Virus record (IMG/VR): IMGVR_UViG_3300037248_000040
Location: 1 to 26,008 of that record
Strand: one strand, 5' to 3'
Length of the DNA stretch: 26,008 nt
Origin: a virus
This document shows, in pieces, positions 580 to 22,034 of the stretch. The notes beneath the pieces are model-generated. The model worked only from the letters and a program-made list of their open reading frames with translations. It did no database searches and was not told where the DNA came from. Position numbers and translations under genes: made by a program. The stretch's first letter is position 1. Each line of letters begins with the position of its first letter.

Positions 580-585
580 TATTTA
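580..585 (-). promoter_or_regulatory. TAAATA late-promoter-like motif, 5 nt before ATG 574
   Basis: The minus strand reads CCCTAAATATCGGT then ATG. It lies in an 18-nt gap after the tail tip stop codon. No SD is present, so the predicted transcript from here would start at or near the ATG. Confidence 0.55.
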
Positions 586-592
586 GGGTTCT

Positions 593-3500
593 TTAGCTGC
601 CTACTGCTGGTGCCTGAGGCGTCCAATAAAGCTGAACCGTGACCCGTTGCCCTGGCGTGCCTGATCCTACTTGTGTGACCTTGCCGTAAAGCGAGTCATT
701 CACGTTGATTTGAATGTTTGAGGCAAAGTCGCCCGATTGTAGAGTAGTCACACCAGGATTTAAGTAGACGGTTCCGATTACTGTTCCCGGTAAACTTGCG
801 CCTTGAGCAAACCTGTAAACGTCAATCGCAATTGGTAAGCCTGTGGGTGGTGTCCATGCGAACGCAAGCCATGATGGACTATTGACCGCCGACGTGTTGA
901 CAATGCCCGCCGTGTTTGCGATGTTGACGTTACAGGTTCCATTGAGTACCACGTCTGCCGGTTGCCCCTGAGTATTTTCTCCGAACAATAGGGTTGCACC
1001 TGGAATTTGAGTTGCTGCCGTCTGCTGTCCATAGACATACAGCATTCTTACAGGGGCTTCTTTTGCTTCCATTCCGTCAACGCCAACTGAATAACCACCA
1101 ATGAGCATCGACTGTTTCAGATAGTTTGCTGTGGGAAGATCGAAAGAAAGATGCTGCGTATAAGATACATTGTTTACTACGGTCTGATCTTGCCCGTTTT
1201 GCCATAGGTTACCCTCGACGATTAAGACGCTTGTCGAGTCCATAATCAAAGGCTGATCGAACGTGTAAGAGGTTGCCGTATTGCTGACAATGTGCGCCGT
1301 AGCGCCCTCATTGGTTCCGGCAATAATTCTGACCATGTTTCCGGCTTCAAAGTTTGCAGTGAGACCACAAAACGGATTCGGCAAGAGCGTTACCTGATCG
1401 ACGTTCAGAGCGTTCTCAATTCCGGCATCAGTGAAGACCGTAGGATTAGATAAATTATCGTAGCCATGAAACGTGACTACGAAGGCATCGCCCGCCAGAG
1501 CTTCACTAGCTGTGCGATCTAACGTAAATGCGCCCGCCGATGCATCAAAAGCAGCGATGTTGTAAGATGCGAAAGGCGTGCTTCCGTTCGGTCTGCCGAT
1601 TAAGATTAACTGCCGTCCTGTCCAGTCATCATGTAGAGTGGCGTCTACGCACTCCGAAGAAACAATCAGGTTGCCGGTTACCGAAGTGATGCCAGCACCG
1701 AGTACGCCACCGTGCAAAAGAGGCTTTACCTTCGGTCTGATCTTTGCGAAATTTCCGTCAGGCATCGCCCAGGTGGTGACAGCAAGCGGACCTGAGAAGG
1801 TAATCGAGGTTACAAGCCCTGAACCTGTCGCCTGAGCGCACATTGCCTGACGATCCGTAGATGCAAACAAGGCCCAATTGCCTACGCCGATTGGTTCAGA
1901 CGGCCACAGAATAGAATCAATCGTGAAGGTGTTAGTATCTGTTCCTGGTGGCGTCACGACTTCGATAACGTTCGAGGCCGCTGTTAAATGCGTAGAGGCG
2001 TCCATCCCGCAAATTGCAACGTAGATTGTCTGACCACCTGGAAGGCTACCGCCCGTCGTACTGGTGGTGACGTTACCGACAAATAACGTAGGTGGCTGTG
2101 ATCCTGAAATGAACGTGTTCACAGTCGCTACGCCCGTCAGTTTGACTTGCGCCTGTACGCTACCATCGGCGAGAAACGTATAGCTCTGCTTTGCGTCGAA
2201 TTGAAATTGATCCGGCCAGAGGGCATCAGCGGAATTTGCTTGAATGTCGTAGGGTTCCCATTCCCCGATAACTTCAGAACTTCCGGCCTGTCCCTCGATA
2301 TAAGCAATCCTCCAGGGAATAAGTGAATCATCACAATGGTTGCCGTCTTTGTCTTCGGTGCGGACACGGAACAACCACACCGAGTCAGCCTCATTGAGCA
2401 CCGAAGGTGAAGCCATTGTGCCGGTGAGCGCCTTCGAGGTTTGAATCTTTGCCGTAGGAATTTCCGGCAAGTCACCAGCGTTGCAAATGACCACCAAGTC
2501 GCCCGTTGAAGGCGTGATCGTCCAGGAATTCGCAAGCGTAAACGCAGTGCCGCCGCTGACTGATGCAATCGGTTGAATGTCACCAACATCAGCACCCGTC
2601 AGGACCACAGCGACGTTACCAGCATCGACCGAAGTAGCGCCCGAGGGGTAGAAGGCGTTCTCTAGGCCGCTGTCCAAGAATCCAGTGCTACTAAATGTCG
2701 CCTTGAAGCACATGGACACCACGTCATTAGGCGCTAGGAGAGTCGTCAGGTCCGGTAATGTGTGGCTGAGTGAATTTCCGCCCACGGTCAATGTAAATGT
2801 GCCGTCCGTTGCTGATGCCGTGCTCGATGCAATCGGGATGAAGATCAAGGGGATTTCCTGCGTAGTGTCAACTTTGGCGAGAACGGCGAGATTGTAACCG
2901 GCCCATTGGTTCAAGGTCATCGAGGCAGACGTAGGCCCTTGAATCGTGATCGTAGTAGACGTGACGCCCGCCACCACTTGCGCCCAAGGTCCACTGTGAA
3001 CCACCTGACGCAACAAGATTGAGAAGTGATCGAAAATTGTATCAATGCCGCCCGGTGTGGTCTGATTGAAAGTCGTGATCGTATGGCTACTTACTGACGA
3101 GTCCAAATCGGCCACATGATGGAACACGTAACCGTCTTCAAACGTGGTCCAACGCCCCATGTAGAGCTTGCCGCCGTCGTCACCCGAACCCCATGTAATG
3201 GCCGTGCTGATCGAACCGGAACCACTACCACCAGAAATAGAAGCGTGTCCGAATGCCTGATAATCGGTGAGCTTGAAAGGTGCGCTTCCAGCATCAGCAG
3301 CCGTCAAAGCTACAACGTACTCGCCATCAGGCAACGAACCGCCCGAAGTGTTGCCGGTGACGATGCAAAGAGGCGATGCAATCTCTTTGTCAAGTACGTT
3401 GATCGGAGATTGACCCTTGATCTGCATTTCAATAATGCCGTTGCCGGATGCGTCTGTGCCGTAGATTGGTTGAAGGCCGAAGGATGCGCCCATGCCTTCG

Positions 3501-5509
3501 TATGCGTCACCAGACAGAGGCGAGACGTAACCCGGCGACCACGGATAAGGAACCTGTTCAATTACGACGTTGTGAGGGTAGTTTGAAATCACGTACCCGG
3601 ATGGCGAAAGTTCTTCTTCAGTACTCCAAACGTAGATGTTAGAATCGGTTTCTTGAAGGTCGATTTCGGTTCCTAACAGCCATCCTTCGTTAGACTTTTC
3701 AGAGCGAAGACGTACCGCCGAAACTTCAAGCTCTTTTCCGCTGAAATTTAGGAATGTCGAATCACAAGAAATTACATCGAGTGGCACGTACTGATATGCA
3801 CTCATGTTGCATTGAAATGTACCTGTGCCGAAATGACGACGGCGTAACAATTCGATCTTTGCGAGGCGTTGCGCTGTGGCTGACGACGTGGTGAAAGGTA
3901 GCTGAATATCTAACCAACGTCTTTGACCACCGTCAGCAGCTAGATTGATATCGCCGTTGTACTGTGGGAATTCGTCATCAGGATCATAGCCGTGGTTTGC
4001 GTCCTGTGCGTAGTAAGGAAAATCACCTGAGACATAGCCGTTGAATCTCGAAATGTATGTGCCTTTTACGCCGTTGTACAGGTCTCGTGCTGAAACGGTA
4101 GGTGACCACTTCATAGGCCCCGCCGCAATCGCTTGTAGATCGACTGTGCCGCTTATAGGCGTGTTCCATCGAGCCGGATTGACCGCATAGAGACCACCTG
4201 TGTACGTCAGACGCCCGCCGCAACTGGAGAGCAAATTTTGAAGTATCTCGCCTCGTCTCATTTCGAGATTGAAGCGACCATTGCAGGTGTAACGCTTTTC
4301 GGTTCCACCAATCACTAGGTCTACGTCTTCGTCGCAAGTGTTGGCGTCAGCCGTCAGCGCCGTTGTATCGATCTCGGTTCCATACGCAGCGCCGTAGCCC
4401 CACGGATGGCGATTACGGCTGTCTGTCAAATCGCCCTGGTTAAGAAAGTCTGCGATACACAAGGCTGAATTTGTCGTGTAGCTGTAGGTGCTGGTGCGTG
4501 GGTCGAAAATGTCATTCTTGCCGGTGACCAAGAACGAAATTTGAGGCGTACCCTGTGGAAAATATTTCTGCTGATATTGAAGGCGCACGAAGACGGCAGT
4601 CATTCCGGCAAGTGAGCAAAAAGCCGTCCAGGGGTTCGGTGCTGCTGTTCCGCCTGCGTTTTCTGGTGACAGTGGAGTAACGAGCTTGCCGGTTCCCTGC
4701 CACGGCGTACCGGCTGTCATTCCTGCGAAGGTCTGACCTAAAGTTTGGTTGCCTAGCAAATATTCCACGTAGACGTTTCGCCCGTAGTCAGGCCAATTTG
4801 TTTTGGCTTGCCCTTGGCTGTCGATGGTTACCGCCGTGCCGCCATTCAGGTAGGTGAAAGTGACTTCGCTGCCCGTCTGCGAAATGATCTCAGCTACGGG
4901 AAAGGTTCCGTTCAAGCTCGCATCGGTCGTGACGTTCTGAATCGTGATTCTGTCGTTTGCCGTGAGGTAGGGAATGTTTGCCGAAAGCACCACCGTAACC
5001 ACGCCGTCAGCACTTCGAGTGATTGACGTGATGTTTACCGTTTGCTGTACCGGAGTGAATGAAGTTCCTGAACCTGTGACCGGAGTAGCAATAGAATAAC
5101 CAGCCTTGGCACTGGTCGGAATTGCGGTAGTGTCGATCTGTACTCTTTGCATATCGAAGAGAACTTCATCGACGCTTTGACAAGGGTGTGCCGCAAGCAC
5201 GAACACCAAGTCACGCATTTGATCGTTATCGCCCCAAGTATTGTCATAAACGCAAATACCGCCCGTTCGAGTCTGACCGTAGATCACTTCCCACGGCCCG
5301 ATTGGATTCTTTTCAGCCGTGGCGTAGCCTGACAGCGGTCTGTTATTGAGCAACGTTCCGATGCCAGAAAACACCATGCCAGCACCAGAGCCGATCAAGA
5401 AAAGAGCTAATGGAGTGCCGCCGCCAAGTGTTCCGGCTTCGACGAGTGCGCCGCCTGCGATCTCAGCAGCACCCGCAACGATTTTTAAGATTCCCGAAAG
5501 TAAAGACAT
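593..5509 (-). CDS. Tail tip / host-specificity protein, gpJ-like
   Basis: This 1638-residue protein is the largest in the window and follows the minor tail genes, the usual place for the baseplate hub and central fibre. It opens with a hydrophobic Gly/Ala-rich segment (about residues 8-55). A gpJ-type hub follows: PIGPWEVIYGQTRTGG, a CQSVDEVLFD stretch, VTGKNDIFDPR, then a cysteine pair region with RYTCNGRFNLEMRRGEIL. Residues about 140-235 look like a beta-sandwich insertion within the hub. The second half is a long string of Gly/Thr/Ser-rich beta modules with a recurring TSGGSLPDGEY / TTGGSLPGGQTIY pattern, fibronectin- or Ig-like. The role would be tail tip assembly and host recognition. 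The start at 5509 is preceded by TAAATA 7 nt upstream and no SD. Confidence 0.85.
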   Translation of the reverse strand: MSLLSGILKIVAGAAEIAGGALVEAGTLGGGTPLALFLIGSGAGMVFSGIGTLLNNRPLSGYATAEKNPIGPWEVIYGQTRTGGICVYDNTWGDNDQMRDLVFVLAAHPCQSVDEVLFDMQRVQIDTTAIPTSAKAGYSIATPVTGSGTSFTPVQQTVNITSITRSADGVVTVVLSANIPYLTANDRITIQNVTTDASLNGTFPVAEIISQTGSEVTFTYLNGGTAVTIDSQGQAKTNWPDYGRNVYVEYLLGNQTLGQTFAGMTAGTPWQGTGKLVTPLSPENAGGTAAPNPWTAFCSLAGMTAVFVRLQYQQKYFPQGTPQISFLVTGKNDIFDPRTSTYSYTTNSALCIADFLNQGDLTDSRNRHPWGYGAAYGTEIDTTALTADANTCDEDVDLVIGGTEKRYTCNGRFNLEMRRGEILQNLLSSCGGRLTYTGGLYAVNPARWNTPISGTVDLQAIAAGPMKWSPTVSARDLYNGVKGTYISRFNGYVSGDFPYYAQDANHGYDPDDEFPQYNGDINLAADGGQRRWLDIQLPFTTSSATAQRLAKIELLRRRHFGTGTFQCNMSAYQYVPLDVISCDSTFLNFSGKELEVSAVRLRSEKSNEGWLLGTEIDLQETDSNIYVWSTEEELSPSGYVISNYPHNVVIEQVPYPWSPGYVSPLSGDAYEGMGASFGLQPIYGTDASGNGIIEMQIKGQSPINVLDKEIASPLCIVTGNTSGGSLPDGEYVVALTAADAGSAPFKLTDYQAFGHASISGGSGSGSISTAITWGSGDDGGKLYMGRWTTFEDGYVFHHVADLDSSVSSHTITTFNQTTPGGIDTIFDHFSILLRQVVHSGPWAQVVAGVTSTTITIQGPTSASMTLNQWAGYNLAVLAKVDTTQEIPLIFIPIASSTASATDGTFTLTVGGNSLSHTLPDLTTLLAPNDVVSMCFKATFSSTGFLDSGLENAFYPSGATSVDAGNVAVVLTGADVGDIQPIASVSGGTAFTLANSWTITPSTGDLVVICNAGDLPEIPTAKIQTSKALTGTMASPSVLNEADSVWLFRVRTEDKDGNHCDDSLIPWRIAYIEGQAGSSEVIGEWEPYDIQANSADALWPDQFQFDAKQSYTFLADGSVQAQVKLTGVATVNTFISGSQPPTLFVGNVTTSTTGGSLPGGQTIYVAICGMDASTHLTAASNVIEVVTPPGTDTNTFTIDSILWPSEPIGVGNWALFASTDRQAMCAQATGSGLVTSITFSGPLAVTTWAMPDGNFAKIRPKVKPLLHGGVLGAGITSVTGNLIVSSECVDATLHDDWTGRQLILIGRPNGSTPFASYNIAAFDASAGAFTLDRTASEALAGDAFVVTFHGYDNLSNPTVFTDAGIENALNVDQVTLLPNPFCGLTANFEAGNMVRIIAGTNEGATAHIVSNTATSYTFDQPLIMDSTSVLIVEGNLWQNGQDQTVVNNVSYTQHLSFDLPTANYLKQSMLIGGYSVGVDGMEAKEAPVRMLYVYGQQTAATQIPGATLLFGENTQGQPADVVLNGTCNVNIANTAGIVNTSAVNSPSWLAFAWTPPTGLPIAIDVYRFAQGASLPGTVIGTVYLNPGVTTLQSGDFASNIQINVNDSLYGKVTQVGSGTPGQRVTVQLYWTPQAPAVGS

Positions 5510-5516
5510 TCGGGAG

Positions 5517-5522
5517 TATTTA
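5517..5522 (-). promoter_or_regulatory. TAAATA motif, 7 nt before ATG 5509
   Basis: The minus strand reads CCCTAAATACTCCCGA then ATG. It lies in the 31-nt gap between the endonuclease VII-like gene and the tail tip gene. Confidence 0.55.
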
Positions 5523-5540
5523 GGGTTTTGGTGGTGTGGT

Positions 5541-6095
5541 TTACACTTTGTTCAAGTACTCAATCGCCCTGATAAGAATGCTCACATTGTCTTTTGCGTT
5601 GCCCAACAAATGGTTGCAATTGTCGCAAAGTAGACCCCTGATCGCATTTGTTGTGTGGCAATGATCGACGTGAAGCACTTTTGCATATGCTTCTTTCGGA
5701 GGCTTGCTACAAATGGCGCAACCGTGACTTTGTTCTGCTAGAATTCGGTCGTACTCTTCTAGGCTGATGCCATACTGTCGGATCAATCTGCGGTTTCGGT
5801 GTTGCCGTTGACGTTCAGGTGTCTTATCTCTCTTCTTATCGTGTGTGGAAAAATATTTTGCAAGCCTTTCTTTGTGAGCTTGACGATACGCCCGCTGATA
5901 TTCTTTTAGATGTGGCTGTCTCTGATAGTCACGAAGTTTTTCCCTGACATCTGGACGCTTGTTAAACTTTTTGCCGTATGCTCTCTTGCAGGCGAAACAC
6001 GCATTGCCGATTTCATACCTTAGGGTTCCTCCACACTTTCGGCAAGGCTTCCCATCGTAGAGGTTGGCTTTGTTTTTTCTCGTGTGCTGTTGCAT
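5541..6095 (-). CDS. HNH endonuclease, endonuclease VII-like (free-standing)
   Basis: A 184-residue basic protein. The N-terminus has two CxxC pairs (CRKC, CFAC), likely zinc-binding, and a long Lys/Arg/Gln-rich helix follows. The C-terminus carries the recombination endonuclease VII pattern: QYGISLEEYDRILAEQ, a GCAIC zinc knuckle, VDHCH with the catalytic Asp-His, then RGLLCDNCNHLLG and KDN. Such proteins are common mobile or homing nucleases in phages. It sits between a minor tail gene and the tail tip gene, where HK97-type phages have no essential gene, so it is probably an insertion. A GTG at 6098 is also in frame, but the ATG at 6095 keeps the 6-nt spacing to TAAATA. Confidence 0.85.
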   Translation of the reverse strand: MQQHTRKNKANLYDGKPCRKCGGTLRYEIGNACFACKRAYGKKFNKRPDVREKLRDYQRQPHLKEYQRAYRQAHKERLAKYFSTHDKKRDKTPERQRQHRNRRLIRQYGISLEEYDRILAEQSHGCAICSKPPKEAYAKVLHVDHCHTTNAIRGLLCDNCNHLLGNAKDNVSILIRAIEYLNKV

Positions 6096-6101
6096 CACGA
6101 G

Positions 6102-6107
6102 TATTTA
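6102..6107 (-). promoter_or_regulatory. TAAATA motif, 6 nt before ATG 6095
   Basis: The minus strand reads TTCTAAATACTCGTG then ATG, in the short gap after the DUF2163-type gene. The inserted HNH gene thus carries the same start signal as the virion genes around it. Confidence 0.5.
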
Positions 6108-6133
6108 GAAAATGACGTTATTCCGTGTAAGCC

Positions 6134-6712: not shown

Positions 6713-7114
6713 TTAGATTGCCTCACGAATTTCAAAGGTTACGGTATAGATGTTTCCTTCACCGATTGACCACTTCGGTTTGTTGTTTTGCAATCTCCAA
6801 TAGCGTGCTGTCGTTCCGTCCGTCGTGAGTTCCTTCGGCCATACTGCGTTAATCGCATCAGTGAACTTGAAGACGTTCGTCATTCCCACGAGGCCCGTTA
6901 GGAACGTCACCCAATTTTGAGCTTGCGTAAACGTCATTGGTTGCCAAGTCACCGAGGCTTCATAGAATCCGGTTGACCAATTTTGAATTTGTTGAGCGCC
7001 GGTGAAAGGGTTCGTATTTACAGCCGTTAATGCGTTCGGTTGAAACTCGAAACTCTTTGGGAATGCCGGATCGGTCGGCAAGCTGACCACGGTCCAACCG
7101 AGATAGGTACTCAT
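6713..7114 (-). CDS. Minor tail protein (distal tail-like)
   Basis: A 133-residue protein immediately downstream of the tape measure gene region and upstream of the DUF2163 gene. It has the pattern of small minor tail proteins at this locus: a PFTGAQQIQNWSTGFYEASV stretch, then FTQAQNWVTFLTGLVG and a beta-rich C-terminus ending in a TVTFEIRE strand. The W-x-A-x-V plus F-L-x-x-L-x-G arrangement is typical of proteins capping the tail tube. The exact family is not recognised with certainty. The start at 7114 lies 5 nt after TAAATA and has no SD. Confidence 0.65.
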   Translation of the reverse strand: MSTYLGWTVVSLPTDPAFPKSFEFQPNALTAVNTNPFTGAQQIQNWSTGFYEASVTWQPMTFTQAQNWVTFLTGLVGMTNVFKFTDAINAVWPKELTTDGTTARYWRLQNNKPKWSIGEGNIYTVTFEIREAI

Positions 7115-7119
7115 GCCGA

Positions 7120-7125
7120 TATTTA
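7120..7125 (-). promoter_or_regulatory. TAAATA motif, 5 nt before ATG 7114
   Basis: The minus strand reads TCATAAATATCGGC then ATG. It lies in the 26-bp divergent gap opposite the DUF1643 gene and overlaps a plus-strand TATGAT (7124-7129), so two opposed promoters may share these bases. Confidence 0.55.
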
Positions 7126-7140
7126 TGATTTAATGTTTGG

Positions 7141-7782
7141 GTGGAAGGGCTTATGGATATGGCGTCACTTAGGAGTGTCCGACTGGAACCTTTTGTGAAA
7201 CGTTCAGATAATGACTGGTTTCGTTTTCAATTCCGCCAACCGTTGAGGGTGCCGACAAAACGTTGGGTTGCGTGGTTGATGATGAATCCGAGTGTAGCTG
7301 GAACAAAGAAGGCGACAGACCGAACGATTGATATAGTTGCTGGCTTCACCGAGGCGTGGGGTTTTGATGGTTTCGTTGTTGTCAATCTATTTCCATTCGT
7401 CTCGCCACGCTCAGATGAGGAAGGCGAGTTTCATCTGTGGCGAAAAGCTCAAATAGATCGTCATGGTGTCGGATGGTTTAAGGTCACGGAGGAGATGCAA
7501 CGGAACCTTGCGGAGATTGAGGAAGCTGGACGCATGGCGACTAGACGAGTCGCCGCTTTTGGTGGACCCATAGAAACGGAAGATCGAGATTGGGTGAAAG
7601 AGTGCGTAAAGAGGTTCGAGCACCCATCGGATTGCAGCATCAGAGAAAGCCTGAGATGCCTTCGGATCAATTCCGGGACATTCTTACCGGGACATCCGAA
7701 GCCTCGGAAAAATACTCCCATTCCCGAAAGTGCTTACAAGGAGCCGGAACCGTGGAGTCGTAGACCCTGGTGGTTAGCGTGA
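7141..7782 (+). CDS. DUF1643 family protein (accessory gene)
   Basis: This is a 213-residue protein on the opposite strand to the tail genes. Motifs match DUF1643: WLMMNPSVAG (about residues 45-54), D60-R-T, then VVVNLFPF (79-86) and a C-terminal GHPKP. The molecular function of DUF1643 is unknown to me; it is common on phages and plasmids. The GTG at 7141 gives 213 residues. An ATG at 7153 with GGAAGG just upstream is an equally good start (209 residues). The 3' end overlaps the tape measure gene tail-to-tail by 9 bp (7774-7782). It is probably a moron inserted between tape measure and minor tail genes. Confidence 0.75.
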   Translation: MEGLMDMASLRSVRLEPFVKRSDNDWFRFQFRQPLRVPTKRWVAWLMMNPSVAGTKKATDRTIDIVAGFTEAWGFDGFVVVNLFPFVSPRSDEEGEFHLWRKAQIDRHGVGWFKVTEEMQRNLAEIEEAGRMATRRVAAFGGPIETEDRDWVKECVKRFEHPSDCSIRESLRCLRINSGTFLPGHPKPRKNTPIPESAYKEPEPWSRRPWWLA

Positions 7783-10744: not shown

Positions 10745-10750
10745 TATTTA
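10745..10750 (-). promoter_or_regulatory. TAAATA motif upstream of the tape measure gene
   Basis: The minus strand reads ACCTAAATAGTC and its TAA is the stop codon of the gp10-like gene. It lies 61 nt before the tape measure ATG, so a transcript from here would carry a leader of about 55 nt with an AGGA. Confidence 0.4.
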
Positions 10751-11194
10751 GGTTTTAATGCCGCCTTTGCTCATTTCGGTCTCGAAGCTCTCAAGGATCG
10801 AATCGGCGAAGGCTTGCACAGCAGCGTCAGCAGCCTGTTCAAGTGCTGGACGCATGAAAGGATGAGCCGGAACGGTCTTTCCTAGATCGGTCTTGTTTGG
10901 TTCATGGCCGATCTCTCTGTGACCATATTCCACGAGACGAGCTTTCCATCCTGCCTGACCAAACCCAATCGTTGCCGTACCTGATTTTGTGTTTGAGTTG
11001 ATGCGAACAGTTGCCTTTAAGTGCGCCTTGAGATCGGACGTTTCAACGGGAATGTTCGGCCCCATTGTTTCGAGTACAGGAACCATTGACGCATCAAGAG
11101 CCTTGCGTAGCGCCTTCTTTGCGATGTCGTCAGGTAATGAATCAAGTGCGCCGCAAGCCGCTTCGAGTCCGGTAACGTTAATCTCTAATGGCAT
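10748..11194 (-). CDS. HK97 gp10-like tail completion protein
   Basis: A 148-residue protein of the HK97-gp10-like family. It has the N-terminal pattern VTGLEAACGALDSLPDDIAK-KALRKALDA, then PVETSDLKAHLKATV, then LVEYGHREIG...VPAHPFMRPAL (the VEYG-x-x and PAHPFMRPA motifs are characteristic), and a C-terminal helix. Such proteins act at the head-tail interface or in tail completion. In most HK97-like genomes the gene lies between head closure and tail terminator genes; here it lies after the chaperone and before the tape measure. The SD is AGGAA about 9-10 nt before the ATG. It overlaps the end of the frameshifted chaperone frame by 17 bp. Confidence 0.8.
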   Translation of the reverse strand: MPLEINVTGLEAACGALDSLPDDIAKKALRKALDASMVPVLETMGPNIPVETSDLKAHLKATVRINSNTKSGTATIGFGQAGWKARLVEYGHREIGHEPNKTDLGKTVPAHPFMRPALEQAADAAVQAFADSILESFETEMSKGGIKT

Positions 11195-12439: not shown

Positions 12440-12458
12440 TGATATTTCCTCTTTGGGT

Positions 12459-12477: not shown

Positions 12478-12489
12478 CCGTTCAAGAGG

Positions 12490-12495
12490 TATTTA
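12490..12495 (-). promoter_or_regulatory. TAAATA motif upstream of the tail tube gene
   Basis: The minus strand reads GCTCATAAATACCTC, 50 nt before the tail tube ATG and 7 nt after the tail terminator stop. Predicted leader about 44 nt. Confidence 0.55.
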
Positions 12496-12502
12496 TGAGC
12501 GC

Positions 12503-14193: not shown

Positions 14194-14198
14194 GTTTG

Positions 14199-14393: not shown

Positions 14394-14399
14394 GAAAGG

Positions 14400-14405
14400 T
14401 ATTTA
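14400..14405 (-). promoter_or_regulatory. TAAATA motif, 6 nt before ATG 14393, after a terminator
   Basis: The minus strand reads CTCTAAATACCTTTC then ATG. Only 16 nt separate it from the terminator U-tract, so a promoter is needed here if the downstream connector and tail genes are to be fully transcribed. Confidence 0.65.
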
Positions 14406-14421
14406 GAGTTCCGTAGACAAC

Positions 14422-14451
14422 AAAAAAGCCCCACTCCGAAGAGTGAGGCTT
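14422..14451 (-). terminator. Rho-independent terminator after the major capsid gene
   Basis: On the minus strand an 11-bp stem (AAGCCTCACTC / GAGTGGGGCTT, one G-U pair) with a TTCG tetraloop is followed by T6. It lies 24 nt after the capsid stop codon. It is the only clear intrinsic terminator in the late module and would separate abundant capsid mRNA from the connector and tail genes. Confidence 0.9.
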
Positions 14452-14474
14452 GATCGAAAACCAGACGACTTGGT

Positions 14475-15800
14475 TTAGGTTGCGGACTGCTTCAATACTG
14501 CAATCGGGTTCGTGCCTGCGTTGACATAGTTGCTGTCGAAACGCTGGAAGGCAATAAAACCACGCTGCAAGTAGTCTGCGTAACGTTCATTGAGAATCAT
14601 TACCTCAGTACCGCTTGCGAGTTCACGGACCTTGAAGCAAGACAGGTCACCAAAGATCATCGAGTATGCCGATGCTGCCGGTGATGCCATGCTCTGATTG
14701 ATGATGTAAGGGTGATCCAAAATTCTTGGTTTCACGCCGCCATCAGCAACGCTTGCGCCGTTGATGAACGAGGCCGTCAAGCCCGGTTGCCACAACGGAC
14801 GGCTGTTTCCGTCAACCAACTGTTTGAGAACCTTCAGCATCGAATCGTTAAACATCCAATACGTCTGTGGATTCTCACGGTATGCCGGATCTACTGCGCC
14901 CTCAAGGTTGACAAGATCGGTGTACGTGATCGTTGACGTTTCGCCCGAAGAGCTAGAACCGCCTGCCGTTACGATGTTGCCGGAACCACCGTTAGCAACT
15001 GCCGTGACGATACCAGTAGGCTGAGAGCTACCTGTTCCCGTTGTGGTGTAGTTGTTATAACCACGGCCCAAACGGATACCAAGATTCTTTGCGACCAATG
15101 CATCAAGATCAAAGTAAGAATCTTCGATCAAGGCCAAAGGCGCAAGAACCAAGCCAGACTGCAAAATGTATGCAGAGAAATTCACCGAACCGAAGACAAG
15201 ATCAGTTTCAGCAACCTGTGTGTTCTGAGCAATGATCGTGCCTGCGTTGCTGGTGTCGTTCAAGGTCGGCCAAGGCATTGTGTTACCTGTAGCTGTCTTG
15301 AAATGCTCTGCTACGCCTGCCATGCAATAGTAGTATTTCTTTGCCTCTTCCAACATGTCGCTGAAGCCTTGCGGAATCAAGTAACCACCCTGTGAGCCGG
15401 TGGTAGTAGACATGGTGTTCTTGAACAAAAGCTCTTTGTCGCCTTCGCTCAGTGGGTGACGAGACGAGGCCGATTTCAGATAGTTTGAGAATGCCTTTTC
15501 ATACGGAGTCTTGGCACGCTTGTTAGCTTCGGAAAGACGGAACGTATCCTTGATTTCTTCGACTTCAGTAGCGGAAAGCTCCGAGACCTTCGGTTTCTCC
15601 AGTGAAGTTGTCAGGGACGACTTATTTGCAATCTTGATTGACTCTTCGATTGCGGAATGATCGGCTTCGAGCTTGTGATACTGTTCACGCTCTACCGATG
15701 TAAACGGACGATTGTTTTCTTTCTTCGCCGTGTCGATCAGGTTTTGAATCTGTACTTCAATACGGATTGCCTGATCTTTGAGACTGTTTGCGTAACTCAT
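14475..15800 (-). CDS. Major capsid protein, HK97 fold
   Basis: A 441-residue protein. The N-terminal 100 residues are a charged coiled coil, the delta/scaffold domain that the head protease removes. The capsid domain follows: MSTTTGSQGGYLIPQGFSD, then VAETDLVFGSVNF-SAYILQSGLVLAPLALIEDS, LGRGYNNYTTTGTGSSQPTG, and the C-terminal VMILNERYADYLQRGFIAFQR. These are standard Phage_capsid (HK97 gp5) landmarks. A GTG at 15812 is in frame, but AGGTG 9 nt before ATG 15800 supports the latter. Its own TAAATA motif is 115 nt upstream and an intrinsic terminator closes the gene, so it may have a dedicated transcript. Confidence 0.92.
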   Translation of the reverse strand: MSYANSLKDQAIRIEVQIQNLIDTAKKENNRPFTSVEREQYHKLEADHSAIEESIKIANKSSLTTSLEKPKVSELSATEVEEIKDTFRLSEANKRAKTPYEKAFSNYLKSASSRHPLSEGDKELLFKNTMSTTTGSQGGYLIPQGFSDMLEEAKKYYYCMAGVAEHFKTATGNTMPWPTLNDTSNAGTIIAQNTQVAETDLVFGSVNFSAYILQSGLVLAPLALIEDSYFDLDALVAKNLGIRLGRGYNNYTTTGTGSSQPTGIVTAVANGGSGNIVTAGGSSSSGETSTITYTDLVNLEGAVDPAYRENPQTYWMFNDSMLKVLKQLVDGNSRPLWQPGLTASFINGASVADGGVKPRILDHPYIINQSMASPAASAYSMIFGDLSCFKVRELASGTEVMILNERYADYLQRGFIAFQRFDSNYVNAGTNPIAVLKQSAT

Positions 15801-15869
15801 TTTGGTTTTCACCTGTTTGGTTGCGCCGCCAACGAAACACCCTGGTGAACCGTTGCGTCACTTCGCATT

Positions 15870-15903
15870 GAGACCGGAACCACTCAAGGTCAAATGCGGT
15901 CTC
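15870..15903 (-). promoter_or_regulatory. Leader hairpin of capsid mRNA
   Basis: A 7-bp inverted repeat, GAGACCG and CGGTCTC with a 20-nt loop, in the 115-nt capsid leader. It begins about 6 nt after the start point predicted from TAAATA, the same offset as in the tail tube leader. Confidence 0.4.
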
Positions 15904-15915
15904 TTTGCTGCTGAG

Positions 15916-15921
15916 TATTTA
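15916..15921 (-). promoter_or_regulatory. TAAATA motif upstream of the major capsid gene
   Basis: The minus strand reads TTCTAAATACTCAGC, 22 nt after the protease stop and 115 nt before the capsid ATG. The 143-bp gap is the largest inside the head module and holds only this motif, a hairpin and the SD. Confidence 0.55.
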
Positions 15922-15943
15922 GAAAACGAGTTACTTTTGAAGA

Positions 15944-16909
15944 CTAGGCAACGTTCAGACGCATACGCATCAAGTTGAGACTTGCTTCGTAGACATCGAG
16001 CGAGGCCGTAGGTTCGGTCTGTGTCTCTTCGCTGCCTTCTGTTTGGTTCGGGCAATCCTCGCAGTTTTCGTCTTTGCAATCCTGCATCGAACAGTTGGAA
16101 CAGTCTTTATTAAGGCAGTTCACGCAATCGCAAGCACATACTTTGTCTTCGTAATCGTCATTGTGAGTGCCGGTGTTGCCCGTTCTGATCGCTTGGATTG
16201 CGTCAGCCAGTTTTTGAAAGTTCTTGGTCAACTTGCAATCGATGTTCACCGTAACCGTGTTGCCGGTGCCACTCTTGAACTTGGTCGGAATGTTCTTGAA
16301 GCCTTGCGCTACCTTCGCTGACGCAATCGAAGTCTTGGCAAAAGCCATTGCTTCGCTATCGTCATTCTTGGTGATCGACGTACAGAAGCCATCGGAGAGC
16401 GCATCTTGAGCACTCATCCAAGTTTCATCGTCCATCATTTGCTTGATAGTCGCCATGCTCTTACCTGTTCGGTCCACATAGGTCTGAGCAATCGAGGCCG
16501 AAACCTTATCGAGTGTGTCAGCCATCTTGCGAAGGTCCGAGGCGTAGCCTACACAGCCTGTCCATGCGTTGTGAATCATCAGCATGGCGTTAGGTGCCAT
16601 CGTAATGGTGTTGCCACACATTGCCACGATAGAAGCCGCTGACGCTGCGATACCGTCAACGTACACGTCAATAGGCTTGTTCTGTGCCTTCAGCATGTTT
16701 CCGATTGCGATACCTTCAGCAGCATCACCACCCGGCGAATTGATACGCATCGAAATTTTGTTAAAGCTGCCTGCGTCGTCAATGGCTTTCTTCATGTCAA
16801 CGGTTGATACTGCGTCTTCGTCAGCACCGAAACCAATCGTGCCGTAGACCAATAGCTCTAACGTTCCGTCGTTCTGTAATGCTGCCTTGAAATGGGGTTT
16901 CTTGTTCAT
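15944..16909 (-). CDS. Head maturation protease, ClpP-like, with a Cys-rich tail
   Basis: A 321-residue protein. Residues about 15-180 are a ClpP/S14-type serine protease: SMRINSPGGDAAEGIAI (oxyanion loop), GIAASAASIVAM with nucleophile Ser90, LMIHNAW with His113, and the candidate third residue Asp146 in DRTG. It cleaves the capsid delta domain during head maturation. The C-terminal part is odd: nine cysteines in residues 258-286 (CACDCVNC, CSNCSMQDC, CEDC), in an acidic context, which suggests a zinc-binding or structural module. The portal stop is 5 nt upstream of the ATG, and GGAGC may act as SD. Confidence 0.88.
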   Translation of the reverse strand: MNKKPHFKAALQNDGTLELLVYGTIGFGADEDAVSTVDMKKAIDDAGSFNKISMRINSPGGDAAEGIAIGNMLKAQNKPIDVYVDGIAASAASIVAMCGNTITMAPNAMLMIHNAWTGCVGYASDLRKMADTLDKVSASIAQTYVDRTGKSMATIKQMMDDETWMSAQDALSDGFCTSITKNDDSEAMAFAKTSIASAKVAQGFKNIPTKFKSGTGNTVTVNIDCKLTKNFQKLADAIQAIRTGNTGTHNDDYEDKVCACDCVNCLNKDCSNCSMQDCKDENCEDCPNQTEGSEETQTEPTASLDVYEASLNLMRMRLNVA

Positions 16910-16914
16910 TGGTT

Positions 16915-18537
16915 TTATGCTCCGATCAGTTTTGTATTGGTCATGTACGCTTCGATCACGGCGTAGGTTTTCTCTGTCAGTTCAGTTGCGAGTTCCGAAG
17001 CTCTGCCACGAGTCCAGTTAGGCGCATCATTGGCAATCGACGAAACCACAGTGCCGATAAAATCCATATCGGTCTTGTTCATCGTTGTAAAGCCGTACTC
17101 AGCCGCAAGGAATGTTTGCAGCATCGAGTTAGCGACAGGTTGAAAGGCTTTCTTGATAAACTCGATATCGTTTCCACGGTTCACAGCACGGCCCACAGCG
17201 TCACGAATCAACGGACGGTAAGCATTGAGCATCTGAACTTTTCTCGATGCCACTGGACTACCTGTGTCTACGTTTGTGTCCGGTTCTTTCGTGGTGGTGA
17301 TGTCCGGTTCGTTCTCGACTTGTTCGGCTTCTTTCAAAAGTTGGTCAAGAGATTTGAAAGTACCGTTGACGATTCGCACGGTTCCCACTTCGCCGCCTAC
17401 AGTGTTTTCGTTCAGGCTTCGCAGACAATCATCAAGTGAATAGATGCCAGCGTTACGGAGTGAGCAAAGAGCCGTTGTGACCGTTGCAAAGTCGCCTCGC
17501 TGAAGGTCCATCATGTTGTGAGAGACCGAATAGTTACCGAGGCCCAACAGCTTGAAATTGATTTCTTGCTCCATACAGGCCGCAATTGGCGCAAGACAGT
17601 AACGTGTATAGTCTAGGCCCTGATGCTCGATGTTGTTATTTGTGGAGCGTGTCAGGTCTTGTAAGAGATGCAACGGCACACGATACAACTGTGCGATTTC
17701 TTCTTTCTGAAATTTGCGAGTCTCAAGAAACTGAGCCTCTTCAGGTGGAATGGTCAACTGATGCCACTCCATACCCTCTTCAAGCAAGATCGGTCTTAAT
17801 GCGGTCTCGCCGGTTGCCACTTCATGCAATGACTTTTTGAGGTTTTCGTATGCTTCAGACTCCAAAGAGCCGGGATGTCTGAAGTAGCCGGAAGGTCTCG
17901 CACCGTTGCCGAACAATTGAGCGCCGAACTTCTCAGCAGCAAGGCCGATTCCTACGGCGTTCTTACACATTCCGATTGGTGACACGCTCCGAATTCCATC
18001 GAGCGTGAACGGCATGAAATGTAGAACGTCGTCAGGGTCAAGAATTGCCACGTCACCATTGGGAGTCTGACGAGTAACAAAGATCAGGTTTCCGTTTTGG
18101 TCTCTGTCAGGGTGCGTCTTCTCAGGGTCAAGATATGTCAGCGAGACCACACGATTAGATGAGTCACGATTGATGTACGAGTAGCCCGAACCTGACATGA
18201 GCATTGACGCAATCATTGCCATGCGCCACACCATGCTTGACATGTTTCTGTTAGGACGGCTGTGTAGCAGAGTGTAGAAACGGTGGTCTGTCGCCTTGCG
18301 TGTGGTTCCGTCTGGCATTGATTCGTAGATGTCCAGAGAAACTCTTGAAAGGTCTTGAGCGATAACCTTGATGCAACTGTAAACCGTGCTGAGTCTCAAG
18401 GCTTGCTTCTGATTGACCATTACGCCAGCATCAGAGCGACCAAGACCTAACGACTCGAACAAAGCAGACATTGGTAACAATGGCTGTGCCGGGTCTTCGA
18501 GCGACCAATTAAAAATACGACTGAGTAGCAAACCCAT
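16915..18537 (-). CDS. Portal protein, HK97 family
   Basis: A 540-residue protein. Landmarks are ALRLSTVYSCIKVIAQDLSR, then LHSRPNRNMSSMVWRMAMI, a DPDDVLHFMPF segment, GIGLAAEKFGAQLFGNGARP-SGYFRHPG, YRVPLHLLQDLTRSTNNNIE and YCLAPIAACMEQEINFKLL. These are standard for HK97 gp3-type portals, the dodecameric vertex through which the terminase pumps DNA. The C-terminal 150 residues are longer and more charged than the core family. A strong SD, GAGAGG, lies 9-10 nt before the ATG. The gene follows the small membrane protein gene by 2 nt and precedes the protease by 5 nt. Confidence 0.93.
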   Translation of the reverse strand: MGLLLSRIFNWSLEDPAQPLLPMSALFESLGLGRSDAGVMVNQKQALRLSTVYSCIKVIAQDLSRVSLDIYESMPDGTTRKATDHRFYTLLHSRPNRNMSSMVWRMAMIASMLMSGSGYSYINRDSSNRVVSLTYLDPEKTHPDRDQNGNLIFVTRQTPNGDVAILDPDDVLHFMPFTLDGIRSVSPIGMCKNAVGIGLAAEKFGAQLFGNGARPSGYFRHPGSLESEAYENLKKSLHEVATGETALRPILLEEGMEWHQLTIPPEEAQFLETRKFQKEEIAQLYRVPLHLLQDLTRSTNNNIEHQGLDYTRYCLAPIAACMEQEINFKLLGLGNYSVSHNMMDLQRGDFATVTTALCSLRNAGIYSLDDCLRSLNENTVGGEVGTVRIVNGTFKSLDQLLKEAEQVENEPDITTTKEPDTNVDTGSPVASRKVQMLNAYRPLIRDAVGRAVNRGNDIEFIKKAFQPVANSMLQTFLAAEYGFTTMNKTDMDFIGTVVSSIANDAPNWTRGRASELATELTEKTYAVIEAYMTNTKLIGA

Positions 18538-18539
18538 TT

Positions 18540-18743
18540 TTAGTTACCTCTCCACGCCGTCAAAGCAAATGGAGTGAGACAGAGCACGCCACCCACAATC
18601 AGAGCCGTAGGAATATGAATTTTCGCTAGACCTGTTTCAATGAGCACGACGCCTAGAAGGGTGAGCACGTCTTGAAGGTCGATCAACGCCTTTTTTACCG
18701 GAACGGGCTTTACTCCGTCGTCTTTCGTGGTGATTCGTAGCAT
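18540..18743 (-). CDS. Small predicted membrane protein
   Basis: A 67-residue protein between the terminase nuclease and portal genes. Two hydrophobic helices (about residues 26-40 and 44-62) follow a charged N-terminus; a short turn (KIHIPT) separates them. The C-terminus is WRGN. Small two-helix proteins at this place are seen in other HK97-like phages, but I know of no function. The start is 7 nt after TAAATA with no SD. Confidence 0.6.
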   Translation of the reverse strand: MLRITTKDDGVKPVPVKKALIDLQDVLTLLGVVLIETGLAKIHIPTALIVGGVLCLTPFALTAWRGN

Positions 18744-18750
18744 TACAAGG

Positions 18751-18756
18751 TATTTA
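18751..18756 (-). promoter_or_regulatory. TAAATA motif, 7 nt before ATG 18743
   Basis: The minus strand reads CCTCATAAATACCTTGTA then ATG. It lies in the 20-nt gap after the terminase nuclease gene and closely resembles the motif at 12490-12495 (CTCATAAATACCT type). Confidence 0.55.
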
Positions 18757-18763
18757 TGAGGAT

Positions 18764-19450
18764 TCAGAACACACGAACACCACGAGTAGCGTAGATGCTT
18801 TTCTTTTTCAGTGGCACGTTCTGAAGCCGTGAAATCGCCATGATGAGCGACACCACGCCGTCAATACGTTTGGTGCTCTTGCCGATGTCAGGCTTCTGTA
18901 CTTTGATGTTGCCGTTAACGTCGCTGTAGATTGTGGTGCAATCAAAATTCCAGCGAAGACAGGGATTCCCGGCATGTACAAATTTGTTGCTGAGGATTGC
19001 CTCTTGCAGTCGCTTCGCCGGTGCTGTCTGTGCTGAGATCGCCTGTGAAGTATCGACGCAAACGAGGCCGCTGTCTTGAAGCTCTGCCACTGTATCACGA
19101 GCGCCCCATTGATCGAACGAAATTTCTTTGATCTTGAACACAGTCGAAAGGTCTTTTATGCGCCTCACGACGTAGCGCCAATCTGTTACTGACCCTGGTG
19201 TAAGCTCTATATGACCTTGCTTTGACCACGAGACATAAGGCACGCTGTCACGAATAGACCGAGCTTCTAGGCCGTCTTCAGGCAGAAAGAACCACGGATG
19301 AGCGTAAATCACACCGTTGATCGACCACGCCAACGTAAAGCAAGTGAGATCGACCACAGCAGCCAAATCGAGACCGCCGTAGCAATCGTAATCTTTCAGT
19401 TGGTCTAGGAATCGTGCGCCTGTAGAGTCTTGCGTCGTGATGATGGTCAC
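18764..19450 (-). CDS. Terminase large subunit, nuclease domain (separate gene)
   Basis: A 228-residue protein corresponding to the C-terminal half of an HK97-type large terminase. CYGGLDLAAVVDLTCF carries the first metal-binding Asp of the RNase H-like nuclease, ISFDQWGARDTVAEL the second site, and RIDGVVSLIMAISR the last Asp. It cuts concatemeric DNA at packaging start and end. No ATPase residues are present; those are encoded by 19850-20818. The start is GTG at 19450, 6 nt after TAAATA, with no SD. The first about 20 residues are a linker not typical of nuclease domains. Together the two halves total 550 residues, a normal full-length terminase. Confidence 0.85.
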   Translation of the reverse strand: MTIITTQDSTGARFLDQLKDYDCYGGLDLAAVVDLTCFTLAWSINGVIYAHPWFFLPEDGLEARSIRDSVPYVSWSKQGHIELTPGSVTDWRYVVRRIKDLSTVFKIKEISFDQWGARDTVAELQDSGLVCVDTSQAISAQTAPAKRLQEAILSNKFVHAGNPCLRWNFDCTTIYSDVNGNIKVQKPDIGKSTKRIDGVVSLIMAISRLQNVPLKKKSIYATRGVRVF

Positions 19451-19456
19451 GAACGA

Positions 19457-19462
19457 TATTTA
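19457..19462 (-). promoter_or_regulatory. TAAATA motif, 6 nt before GTG 19450
   Basis: The minus strand reads CCCTAAATATCGTTC then GTG. It restarts leftward expression for the nuclease half of the split terminase, back to back with a plus-strand TATACT at 19470-19475. Confidence 0.6.
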
Positions 19463-19469
19463 GGGTTGG

Positions 19470-19475
19470 TATACT
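19470..19475 (+). promoter_or_regulatory. Plus-strand -10 box, 6 nt before ATG 19482
   Basis: TATACT differs from the TATAAT consensus at one base. Six nucleotides follow before the ATG, so a transcript would be leaderless. No good -35 is seen at the usual distance. Confidence 0.45.
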
Positions 19476-19481
19476 TCTGTA

Positions 19482-19853
19482 ATGCCAATGACCGAGGAAG
19501 CACAAGCGCTAATGCGAGTTCTTTTGAGGCGTCATGACGAAGTTTGCAAGAATTTCAACGTGACCGGCCCCGATCAAGTAGATGAGGGGATGATTTTACG
19601 GAGCGTTATTTCGTATGGCGTTTTGTGCGAACGTGCTGGAGCACCGTTTCTGACCCGCATTGTCGGACAGTTCCTTGGTGAAGTTGCGGAGTTATGCGCC
19701 GAAAACACTTGGCCGCCGTTGAATTCGATGGCGGTTAACGGGGATACAAATCGCCCTGGTGAAGGGTATGATACGGCTGTGAACTGTTCTTTTGCGGAGT
19801 GGGAGCGAGATGTTAGGCGGTGCATCGCCTTCCCCTTTCCTCCGACGATCTAA
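19482..19853 (+). CDS. Unknown 123-residue protein inserted in the terminase
   Basis: This gene lies on the plus strand between the two terminase halves. Its stop (TAA 19851-19853) overlaps the TAG of the ATPase half (19850-19852) in a tail-to-tail arrangement. The C-terminal half has a strong conserved-looking signature: YGVLCERAGAPFLTRIVGQF, LGEVAELCAENTWPPLNSM, then AVNGDTNRPGEGYD and a C-terminal WERDVRRCIAF. I recall a similar PPLxxxxVNxxTxxPGxGY pattern in uncharacterised bacterial and phage proteins, but I know of no function. It is not an HNH, GIY-YIG or LAGLIDADG nuclease, so it is not an ordinary homing gene. ATG 19488 is an alternative start. Confidence 0.7.
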   Translation: MPMTEEAQALMRVLLRRHDEVCKNFNVTGPDQVDEGMILRSVISYGVLCERAGAPFLTRIVGQFLGEVAELCAENTWPPLNSMAVNGDTNRPGEGYDTAVNCSFAEWERDVRRCIAFPFPPTI

Positions 19854-20818
19854 GCGGCAATTGGCAAGGATGTTTCGCCGTCCCATTTGCAGGCGTCGAA
19901 ATGGTGTAGAGAAATCCAAACGTCCTTTGCATTGACCCATTGATTGAGAAATAGACGGCGAAATTTTGTTTGCTCTGCTGGAATCTTGAGCGCTGTTTCA
20001 CGTTCGGCCCTGAGATCATCGAGCTTGACGAGTGCGCCCAACGTGGGATTGGCAAGAGGCCAGAGGGTTTCATCGGTCCAATCAGCATCTTTGGGAACCT
20101 CGAAGATTAGAGGCAAGAAAGCCGGATCATCTACAACGCCGTCACGGACCTTGCAGGCGTACTCGTATTGCTTGCCACAAATGGAGTGTTCATCGATACC
20201 GGCTGTCGTGATCGTAAGAAACAACGGCTGACGCCTGAGGCCGCTACCAGTCGTCAAGGCGTCGTAAAGCTCTTGCTCGCTCGATGTCCAGGAATGAAGC
20301 TCATCAAAGATCACGCATGAAGGATTCAGACCATGCTTGCTCTTGCCTTCTGAAGACAGCGCCTTGAGCTTGCCGCCATTCTGCCGGTTGATAATGGTTT
20401 TAGTTGACGGAGTGATAGCAAGAATGTCTGACAGGTCCGGTGAAGCATGGATCATGTCAGCGATTGCATAAAAACACAGTGAGGCTTGCTCTCTGTCCTT
20501 CGCAGCAATGTAAATTTCAGGCTGAAGTTCGTTATCGAGCACCAGCATTACCAAAGCAATCGCCGCCGCAATCTGAGTCTTTGCGTTCTTGCGTGCCAGT
20601 GAGAAATAACACTTTCGATAAAGCCTCGTGCCGTCTGGACGCTTCCACCCTAGAAGATTCTCGATAAGCTCACGATGGACAGGTAACAGGGTGAACGGTT
20701 CCGGCCTGCCTGACTTGGTGGTCTTGGTGAGCGTCAGTGATTCGATAAAGGCAATGTCAATGTCAACGTGCTTGCGGTCGAAAAATGCGCCTGATGGTTT
20801 GTTACGTGGTTCCTTCAT
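19850..20818 (-). CDS. Terminase large subunit, ATPase domain (separate gene)
   Basis: A 322-residue protein with the N-terminal motor half of an HK97-type terminase. Walker A is the variant SLARKNAKT (about residues 73-81). Walker B is PSCVIFDELHSW (about 165-176), followed by the coupling motif region LFLTITTAGIDEHS. It ends at FDACKWDGETSLPIAA, exactly where an intact protein would pass through the linker into the nuclease domain. It pumps DNA through the portal. Its start overlaps the small terminase gene by 17 bp, so translation is probably coupled; no SD is clear. It must act with the separately encoded nuclease domain. Confidence 0.88.
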   Translation of the reverse strand: MKEPRNKPSGAFFDRKHVDIDIAFIESLTLTKTTKSGRPEPFTLLPVHRELIENLLGWKRPDGTRLYRKCYFSLARKNAKTQIAAAIALVMLVLDNELQPEIYIAAKDREQASLCFYAIADMIHASPDLSDILAITPSTKTIINRQNGGKLKALSSEGKSKHGLNPSCVIFDELHSWTSSEQELYDALTTGSGLRRQPLFLTITTAGIDEHSICGKQYEYACKVRDGVVDDPAFLPLIFEVPKDADWTDETLWPLANPTLGALVKLDDLRAERETALKIPAEQTKFRRLFLNQWVNAKDVWISLHHFDACKWDGETSLPIAA

Positions 20819-21242
20819 TCTTTGCTGCTAAGAGCGTTGCCAATTGCGATGTCTTCGGCTGTTCTCTTTTCAATCCGAGGCGTAAGCGTGCTGCCGGTGT
20901 TGCGCCGATCATGTCAAGCCACTTCTGAAGGTCTCGTGCATAGCGTGTGATTTCCTTCGAGCATTTGAGCTTGTCTGCGAGGCTTTCCGCCAGTGCCTCA
21001 CGTTCTAACCACTCGCCGCAAGAAACAACAGTGTGCGCTGTGATTGCGATGGCGTTGCAGTCCAGTTGCTTGACAGGGACACCAGCGCCGATAAGTTCAG
21101 CCACCAGTTTTTTGAATTGAGCCTTCGCTTTTTTTGAAAGAAATTTTGGTGCGTCGATGTGTTCAGGCGCATCTATGAAAGTGCCACCTTCACGTTCAGC
21201 ACGAACGCTTCCAGGTTGTCTCAATTTTCCTTTTAATCCCAT
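20802..21242 (-). CDS. Terminase small subunit (P27-like)
   Basis: A 146-residue protein beginning MGLKGKLRQPGSVRAER, typical of small terminases of the P27/Terminase_4 type. PKFLSKKAKAQFKKLVAELI-GAG, LDCNAIAITAHTVVSCGEWL and the helical C-terminus agree. It recognises the packaging start site and presents DNA to the large subunit. The same frame is open up to a TTG at 21401, overlapping the preceding gene, but those 53 extra residues are low-complexity and unlike the family, so ATG 21242 is preferred. A perfect GGTAAATTTTACC palindrome lies 9 nt upstream. The 3' end overlaps the ATPase gene by 17 bp. Confidence 0.8.
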   Translation of the reverse strand: MGLKGKLRQPGSVRAEREGGTFIDAPEHIDAPKFLSKKAKAQFKKLVAELIGAGVPVKQLDCNAIAITAHTVVSCGEWLEREALAESLADKLKCSKEITRYARDLQKWLDMIGATPAARLRLGLKREQPKTSQLATLLAAKNEGTT

Positions 21243-21251
21243 TTGTATATC

Positions 21252-21264
21252 GGTAAAATTTACC
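21252..21264 (-). repeat. 13-bp palindrome before the small terminase gene
   Basis: The minus strand reads GGTAAATTTTACC, a perfect dyad around one central base, 9 nt before ATG 21242. It occupies the place of the TAAATA motif in other genes and could be an operator or a variant promoter element; it also lies in the usual cos/pac neighbourhood. Confidence 0.4.
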
Positions 21265-21390
21265 TTTTCAAATTTGTAAACGCTCGCATAGCCCCGCCGT
21301 GGTGGTCTGCGGCCCTGTGGTACCCAAGGATTTTCGGTACCCCTGCCTTGGGAACCTTGCGCCACGGCCTGAGAGCTTCTTTCGCCCTGG

Positions 21391-21675
21391 TTAGTTGCCA
21401 AACATCGGAGTCATGAACGAAACCGTTGCTGTGCTGGTGGCAGTGATACCGTAGATCGGCGAACCTACCGAACCGTCACAGGATGGAATCGTGATCGATG
21501 CGCCTGACGCTACCTTGATGCCACCCGTAGCCGTCGTGTCCGCTGTGACCGATGCACCACCGAAGTAAACCGCCGCCGATCCATTGTTGACGAGTAGCAC
21601 GCCGCTGTTGGTATTGGGTGTGCAAATCAACGTTGCCGTGCTCGATACTGAAACCGTTCCTTGTGAGTAAGCCAT
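21391..21675 (-). CDS. Small beta-rich protein, possible virion decoration
   Basis: A 94-residue protein rich in S, T, G, A and V with no charged helices. The pattern GVLLVNNGSAAVYFGGASV-TADTTATGGIKVASGASITI...PIYGITATSTATVSF resembles small beta-sandwich proteins that occur in many tailed phages, often in the head module. A decoration or fibre-base role is possible, but the function is not established. Here it is upstream of the terminase genes and not next to the capsid gene. The start is 5 nt after TAAATA, with no SD. Confidence 0.6.
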   Translation of the reverse strand: MAYSQGTVSVSSTATLICTPNTNSGVLLVNNGSAAVYFGGASVTADTTATGGIKVASGASITIPSCDGSVGSPIYGITATSTATVSFMTPMFGN

Positions 21676-21680
21676 GATCG

Positions 21681-21686
21681 TATTTA
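21681..21686 (-). promoter_or_regulatory. TAAATA motif, 5 nt before ATG 21675
   Basis: The minus strand reads ACCTAAATACGATC then ATG. It lies in the 18-nt gap after the HNH gene stop. Confidence 0.55.
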
Positions 21687-21693
21687 GGTCTTG

Positions 21694-22023
21694 CTATTCG
21701 CCTTGATTGGTGCGCTTCTGATGACATGGCTTGCAAAGTCCCAAACAATTTGACTCGACTAGACGAAGTTCAGGAAAATCGACGAGCTTCTTTATGTGGT
21801 GTACTTCGGCTGTCGCTTTGATGCCGCAATCGTTACAAATTGGGTGACGACTGATGAACCACACTCTAAACTTTTGCCAAGTGCGATCATAGCCACGCTC
21901 AAACGCACTCTTCCGGCTATCAATGTGAAGTTGTAACGATGAACGATGGTCAGGACAACGGTACGAGTCTGAGAGCTTGCCGCAATTGGGATAAGAACAG
22001 GCTTTGAATGGTTTCGATGGCAC
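21694..22023 (-). CDS. HNH endonuclease, terminase-associated type
   Basis: A 109-residue protein. An N-terminal zinc ribbon-like part (CSYPNCG, YRCPDH) precedes the typical phage HNH core: RGYDRTWQKFRVWFISRHPI, then CNDCG, EVHHIKKL with the catalytic His, and a terminal CKPCHQKRT. HNH proteins of this type lie beside terminase genes in many HK97-like phages and assist DNA cleavage during packaging, which is the likely role here given its place as the first gene of the leftward module. The start is GTG at 22023, 5 nt after TAAATA; no SD. Confidence 0.88.
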   Translation of the reverse strand: MPSKPFKACSYPNCGKLSDSYRCPDHRSSLQLHIDSRKSAFERGYDRTWQKFRVWFISRHPICNDCGIKATAEVHHIKKLVDFPELRLVESNCLGLCKPCHQKRTNQGE

Positions 22024-22028
22024 TCACG

Positions 22029-22034
22029 TATTTA
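22029..22034 (-). promoter_or_regulatory. TAAATA motif, 5 nt before GTG 22023
   Basis: The minus strand reads TTGTAAATACGTGA then GTG. It is the first motif of the late module and lies back to back with the plus-strand box at 22047-22052. Confidence 0.5.

Follow-up and report, generated by a model that had tools for sequence, protein, structure and literature searches.

The hexamer TAAATA probably serves as a single-element late promoter, with no -35 box and with mostly leaderless transcripts, in a soil phage represented by a 26,008-nt stretch of DNA (the window) and in two diverged relatives, here called G001 and G413. We consider this likely because of the position and strand of the motif, its conservation in the three phages, the division of its genes into those with and without a Shine-Dalgarno sequence (SD), the lack of a -35 element and the placement of terminators, all of which are seen directly in the sequence. 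The promoter role, the start site and the late timing are inferred from these features, and our confidence applies to the promoter and its leaderless transcripts, not to the identity of the reader. The general picture of HK97-type late genes is a single long operon whose genes are led by SDs. If the promoter reading is true, each of three diverged phages drives its late genes from about ten short, mostly leaderless single-element promoters; phage late regulation is tied to a leaderless mode of initiation that is common in Acidobacteria; promoters and units of late transcription become predictable in uncultured phages; and a further RNA polymerase specificity factor is implied. Far more tentatively, HK97-type soil phages may possess an undescribed late switch, in which a phage factor unlike gp55 or phiEco32 gp36 would redirect host RNA polymerase to TAAATA, and in which leaderless mRNAs for most structural units, set against long SD-bearing leaders for the capsid and major tail genes, would allow protein amounts to be controlled by the promoters.

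TAAATA at late gene boundaries

The late module of the window is an HK97-type siphovirus cluster of terminase, portal, protease, capsid, tape measure and tail genes, and matches to phrog_10 capsid, Phage_portal and TerL agree with the label given to it in an earlier note on this DNA. Across the whole window the minus strand holds 13 copies of TAAATA and the plus strand none; dinucleotide shuffles, with both strands pooled, gave a mean of 5.2 copies and a maximum of 10, so that none of 100 shuffles reached 13. Late-module gene boundaries hold 12 of the 13 copies. The earlier note had placed these twelve exactly, had correctly counted a single further minus-strand copy inside a gene (7015-7020) and none on the plus strand, and had described a flank bias that proves real over 26 sites pooled from the three phages; absent from it were the fixed gap of 5-7 nt, the lack of an SD at that gap and the three leadered sites described below. 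Window genes on the opposite strand have no copy, and the strand exclusivity arises in part because the late genes occupy one strand. In hexamer counts over the window, codon-usage hexamers outrank TAAATA in over-representation, and the motif is distinctive by position: ATG, GTG or TTG follows 5-7 nt after 9 of the 13 copies (background 14%, p ~1e-5). Nine of the 12 boundary sites end exactly 5-7 nt before the ATG or GTG of a gene without an SD, some start codons having been picked among alternatives a few nucleotides apart (for example, 6095 over 6098), and the other three stand farther off, 50-103 nt upstream of SD-bearing genes (tape measure, major tail and capsid). The features of the window, all on the minus strand, are as follows.

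22029..22034, minus: TAAATA, 5 nt before GTG 22023 (HNH endonuclease gene 21694-22023); also before the G001 homologue
21681..21686, minus: TAAATA, 5 nt before ATG 21675 (94-aa gene); the gene after the HNH gene has it likewise in G001 and G413
19457..19462, minus: TAAATA, 6 nt before GTG 19450 (TerL nuclease half); after opposite-strand ORF 19482-19853
18751..18756, minus: TAAATA, 7 nt before ATG 18743 (67-aa gene preceding portal); position matched in G001 and G413
15916..15921, minus: TAAATA of the major capsid gene, 103-nt leader to GTG 15812; site conserved in a fourth phage (L008)
14426..14451, minus: intrinsic terminator downstream of the capsid gene, with an 11-bp stem, a 4-nt loop and a T-rich tail
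14400..14405, minus: TAAATA, 6 nt before ATG 14393 (64-aa gene); position matched in G001 and G413
12490..12495, minus: TAAATA of the putative major tail protein gene, 50-nt leader to ATG 12439; SD AGAGGA
10745..10750, minus: TAAATA, 61 nt before ATG 10683 (tape measure)
7120..7125, minus: TAAATA, 5 nt before ATG 7114 (distal tail-like gene); after opposite-strand ORF 7141-7782
7015..7020, minus: TAAATA within gene 6713-7114, probably chance
6102..6107, minus: TAAATA, 6 nt before ATG 6095 (endonuclease VII-like gene), or 3 nt before the alternative GTG 6098
5517..5522, minus: TAAATA, 7 nt before ATG 5509 (putative tail-tip gene, 1638 aa); the G413 homologue is preceded by it too
580..585, minus: TAAATA, 5 nt before ATG 574 (gene that continues beyond the window)

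The TAA of the site at 10745..10750 also ends the reading frame of gene 10748-11194. Several TAAATA sites in the window and in G001 come directly after an intrinsic terminator. The one after the capsid gene ends 20 nt before the site at 14400..14405, a terminator in G001 (L015 15262-15291) precedes the site at 15306, and the equivalent site in G413 follows a T-rich, terminator-like stretch, an apparent terminator. Terminators just upstream of these sites call for a new promoter. Genes tightly coupled to the gene upstream almost never have TAAATA. In the window the two halves of TerL are split by ORF 19482-19853, on the opposite strand, and the second half has its own TAAATA; in G001 and G413 the halves overlap, with no TAAATA between them. 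Similarly, the distal tail gene of G413 overlaps the tape measure gene and has no TAAATA; its counterpart in the window (7114) has a site.

Several side observations concern the same regions. Three genes inserted into the late module of the window lie on the opposite strand, at 7141-7782 (plus; DUF1643), 19482-19853 (plus; unknown) and 22059-23045 (plus; unknown plus DUF3800), and each immediately adjoins the TAAATA of the next late gene. The TerL ATPase/nuclease ORF is split at phrog_9 position 470 in the window, G001 and G413, and apparently also in L124 and L141 (window 18764-20818, minus; L015 5413-7156; L202 3721-5360); in L132 and L133 it is seemingly one long ORF. A block in the capsid leader, GTTCACC[AT]GGGTG, is common to three phages (window 15812-15915, minus; L008 3275-3383; L015 9903-10003) and not obvious in G413; it is possibly a regulatory RNA or operator. 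Outside the structural module of G001, a DNA methylase gene (N6_N4_Mtase; L098 8540-9561, minus) has hairpin-TAAATA-N5-GTG in front of it.

Conservation in three phages and the gap to the start codon

Relatives were gathered by capsid and portal searches. A motif search among relatives had been proposed in the earlier note, and two diverged phages repeat the layout: G001 (L015), with a capsid 58% identical, carries 13 late-strand and 2 other-strand copies of TAAATA in 35 kb, and G413 (L136, with L135 representing the same phage), with a capsid 48% identical, carries 12 and 1 in 36 kb. The site before the capsid gene is kept in L008 as well. Two fragments, L001 and L004, have portal and capsid proteins 100% identical to those of the window and are presumably the window phage itself. 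L156 and similar loci were rejected as motif phages, since they have TAAATA on both strands from AT-rich composition. Against the promoter reading, TAAATA is missing from several GC-rich relatives whose capsids and portals are related; relatives of 56-65% GC have no motif and have SDs on many genes. The three motif phages group weakly in a portal tree, and in a TerL tree the GC-rich, motif-free phages are intermixed with them. Exclusive to the motif-bearing phages is TerS, joined in G001 and G413 by an integrase, which both carry, and a DNA methylase; no transcription factor is evident among these exclusive genes. The TerS family (window 20802-21401, minus) is confined, among viral contigs, to motif-bearing phages, and a scan with the TerS alignment recovered the known motif-bearing phages only. 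Comparison suggests that the true start of TerS is ATG 21242 and not TTG 21401.

Statistics were compiled for the 72 late gene starts of the window, G001 and G413. TAAATA ends 5, 6, 7, 8 or 9 nt before the start codon in 10, 7, 6, 1 and 1 cases, respectively, and never at gaps of 0-4 or 10-29 nt; at gaps of 5-7 nt, 23 sites were observed, compared with 0.1 expected from the late-strand density. TAAATC occupies that position in four more genes. None of the 25 motif-adjacent genes has an SD at or below -4 kcal/mol (median +1.5), and random sequence in which TAAATA had been planted has a stronger median, -0.3. An SD is present in 6 of the 8 leadered genes (difference from motif-adjacent genes, p 2e-4) and in 46% of motif-free genes. 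The leaders themselves are of similar length in the window, G001 and G413, at 103, 101 and 88 nt for the capsid gene and 50, 54 and 44 nt for the major tail gene. In the gap and in the lack of an SD, motif-adjacent genes match leaderless bacterial genes, whose -10-type element lies about 12 bp upstream of the start codon. The pooled consensus of 26 sites is roughly [CT][CT][CA]TAAATA[CT], and in 24 of the 26 the motif is followed by C or T; the two bases 5' of it are usually a pyrimidine and then C or A. No -35 or other conserved upstream element was found across the 26 aligned sites, and a scan with the sigma-70 consensus promoter gave no excess and no relation to TAAATA sites.

In the mechanism that we propose, TAAATA (consensus [CT][CA]TAAATA[CT], in some cases TAAATC) would act as the -10-type element of phage late promoters, and transcription would begin about 6 nt past it. 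In most units the first transcribed base would be that of the start codon itself, giving a leaderless mRNA that can dispense with an SD. The start site of the capsid and major tail genes, and in the window of the tape measure gene as well, would lie 44-103 nt upstream, and translation would proceed via the SD. Terminators would separate units in places, and where a gene of opposite orientation interrupts the late operon, a fresh copy of TAAATA would restart it.

Alternative explanations and the identity of the reader

A few copies, among them that at 7015 and some in G413, are probably random, but chance or base composition is refuted for the whole set by the 23 sites at gaps of 5-7 nt where 0.1 were expected and by the strand count of 13 to 0, and we give it practically no weight. 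The motif might instead be a non-SD ribosome-binding signal on messages already transcribed. Such a signal would fit the 5-7 nt gap, which is SD-like, and the lack of an SD in motif-adjacent genes; however, in all three phages the motif precedes the capsid and major tail genes by 44-103 nt, mostly in addition to an SD, a location that does not suit a ribosome-binding element. The terminators directly upstream and the near absence of the motif from tightly coupled genes likewise argue against a translation signal, which we regard as highly improbable.

If TAAATA is a promoter, it could be an ordinary -10 box read by the host primary sigma, with no phage factor. Searches of genome contigs found only distant capsid relatives, the best two in Acidobacteria MAGs, and the host phylum is probably Acidobacteria. 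In this phylum 13.3% of genes on average are leaderless, and leaderless -10 boxes sit immediately before start codons without an SD, which is the position that TAAATA occupies (PMC3160421). In two Acidobacteria genomes, with starts crudely called, TANNNT is enriched before start codons (12 vs 4.8 and 14 vs 5.2). Yet TAAATA stood at the leaderless -10 place in none of 450 genes of these two sampled Acidobacteria, and TANNNA showed no clear enrichment there; in two other Acidobacteria MAGs, TAAATA-N5-7-ATG was not above a reversed-pattern control. The contrast drawn in the earlier note between the motif and the TANNNT host-type box thus agrees with the two sampled genomes. The early-strand genes of the same phages also lack TAAATA, and an ordinary host box is unlikely. 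Since TANNNT is enriched and TAAATA absent in the Acidobacteria sampled, the phages probably exploit the leaderless habit of the host with a different -10 sequence. Because the element ends in A where the usual -10 box has T, we infer that the reader is RNA polymerase with something besides the ordinary host primary sigma. It is possible, though doubtful, that this is a phage-encoded small sigma, or a sigma with a co-activator, similar single-element promoters being read by the phage sigmas of T4 and phiEco32 (PMC3014915, PMC8948821). One candidate is a 129-aa protein of G001 (L097 2134-2523, plus), encoded on the strand that does not carry the late genes, with a Sigma70_r4 match of 8e-9 (Pfam), a helix-turn-helix and region 4 only. 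Sigma region 4 normally reads the -35 box, which is missing from these sites. Moreover, no region 4-like protein above the cut-off was found in G413, the window or the motif-free relatives searched, and the G001 protein has no relatives in viral contigs or phage records. Neither Sigma70_r2 nor the gp55-family phrog_234 had a match in the window, G001, G413 or G414 at E up to 10, the records being possibly incomplete. The earlier note was right that no late sigma is visible in the window, and the search that it proposed for a gp55-like sigma, extended to the relatives of 35-36 kb (possibly fragments), likewise yielded nothing; its view that a phage-encoded specificity factor is likely was not borne out, and the sole sigma-like protein, that of G001, was not found in G413.

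Comparison with known promoter systems

The proposed promoters resemble T4-type late promoters in having a single -10-type element with a TAAATA core followed by C or T, in lacking a -35 box and in serving late structural genes. The T4-type late system is coupled to replication via gp33 and the sliding clamp. T4 late promoters (TATAAATA) require gp55 and gp33 and lie upstream of the ribosome-binding site (PMC3014915). In the phages described here, the TA that begins TATAAATA is usually absent, a pyrimidine followed by C or A taking its place; TTATAAATAAT stands at the capsid sites of G001 and G413. The identity with the T4 core proposed in the earlier note holds for TAAATAY, and the full octamer TATAAATA is not the rule. 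Further differences from T4 are that no gp55-family match was found here, that the predicted starts are mostly leaderless and that the phages are of the HK97 type, G001 and G413 carrying integrases. The late promoters of phiEco32 have one element, with start sites 6-8 bp downstream, serve several late units and are recognised by a phage sigma that shows no homology to region 4 (PMC8948821). The proposed promoters are like the gp36 middle and late promoters of that phage (tAATGTAtA) in their single element and lack of a -35 box; they differ in sequence, and phiEco32 is a phage of enterobacteria whose sigma is known. Finally, like the TANNNT boxes of Acidobacteria, Actinobacteria and Deinococcus, TAAATA lies immediately before start codons without an SD; unlike them, it ends in A (or C), has a near-invariant TAAAT and is limited to one class of phage genes.
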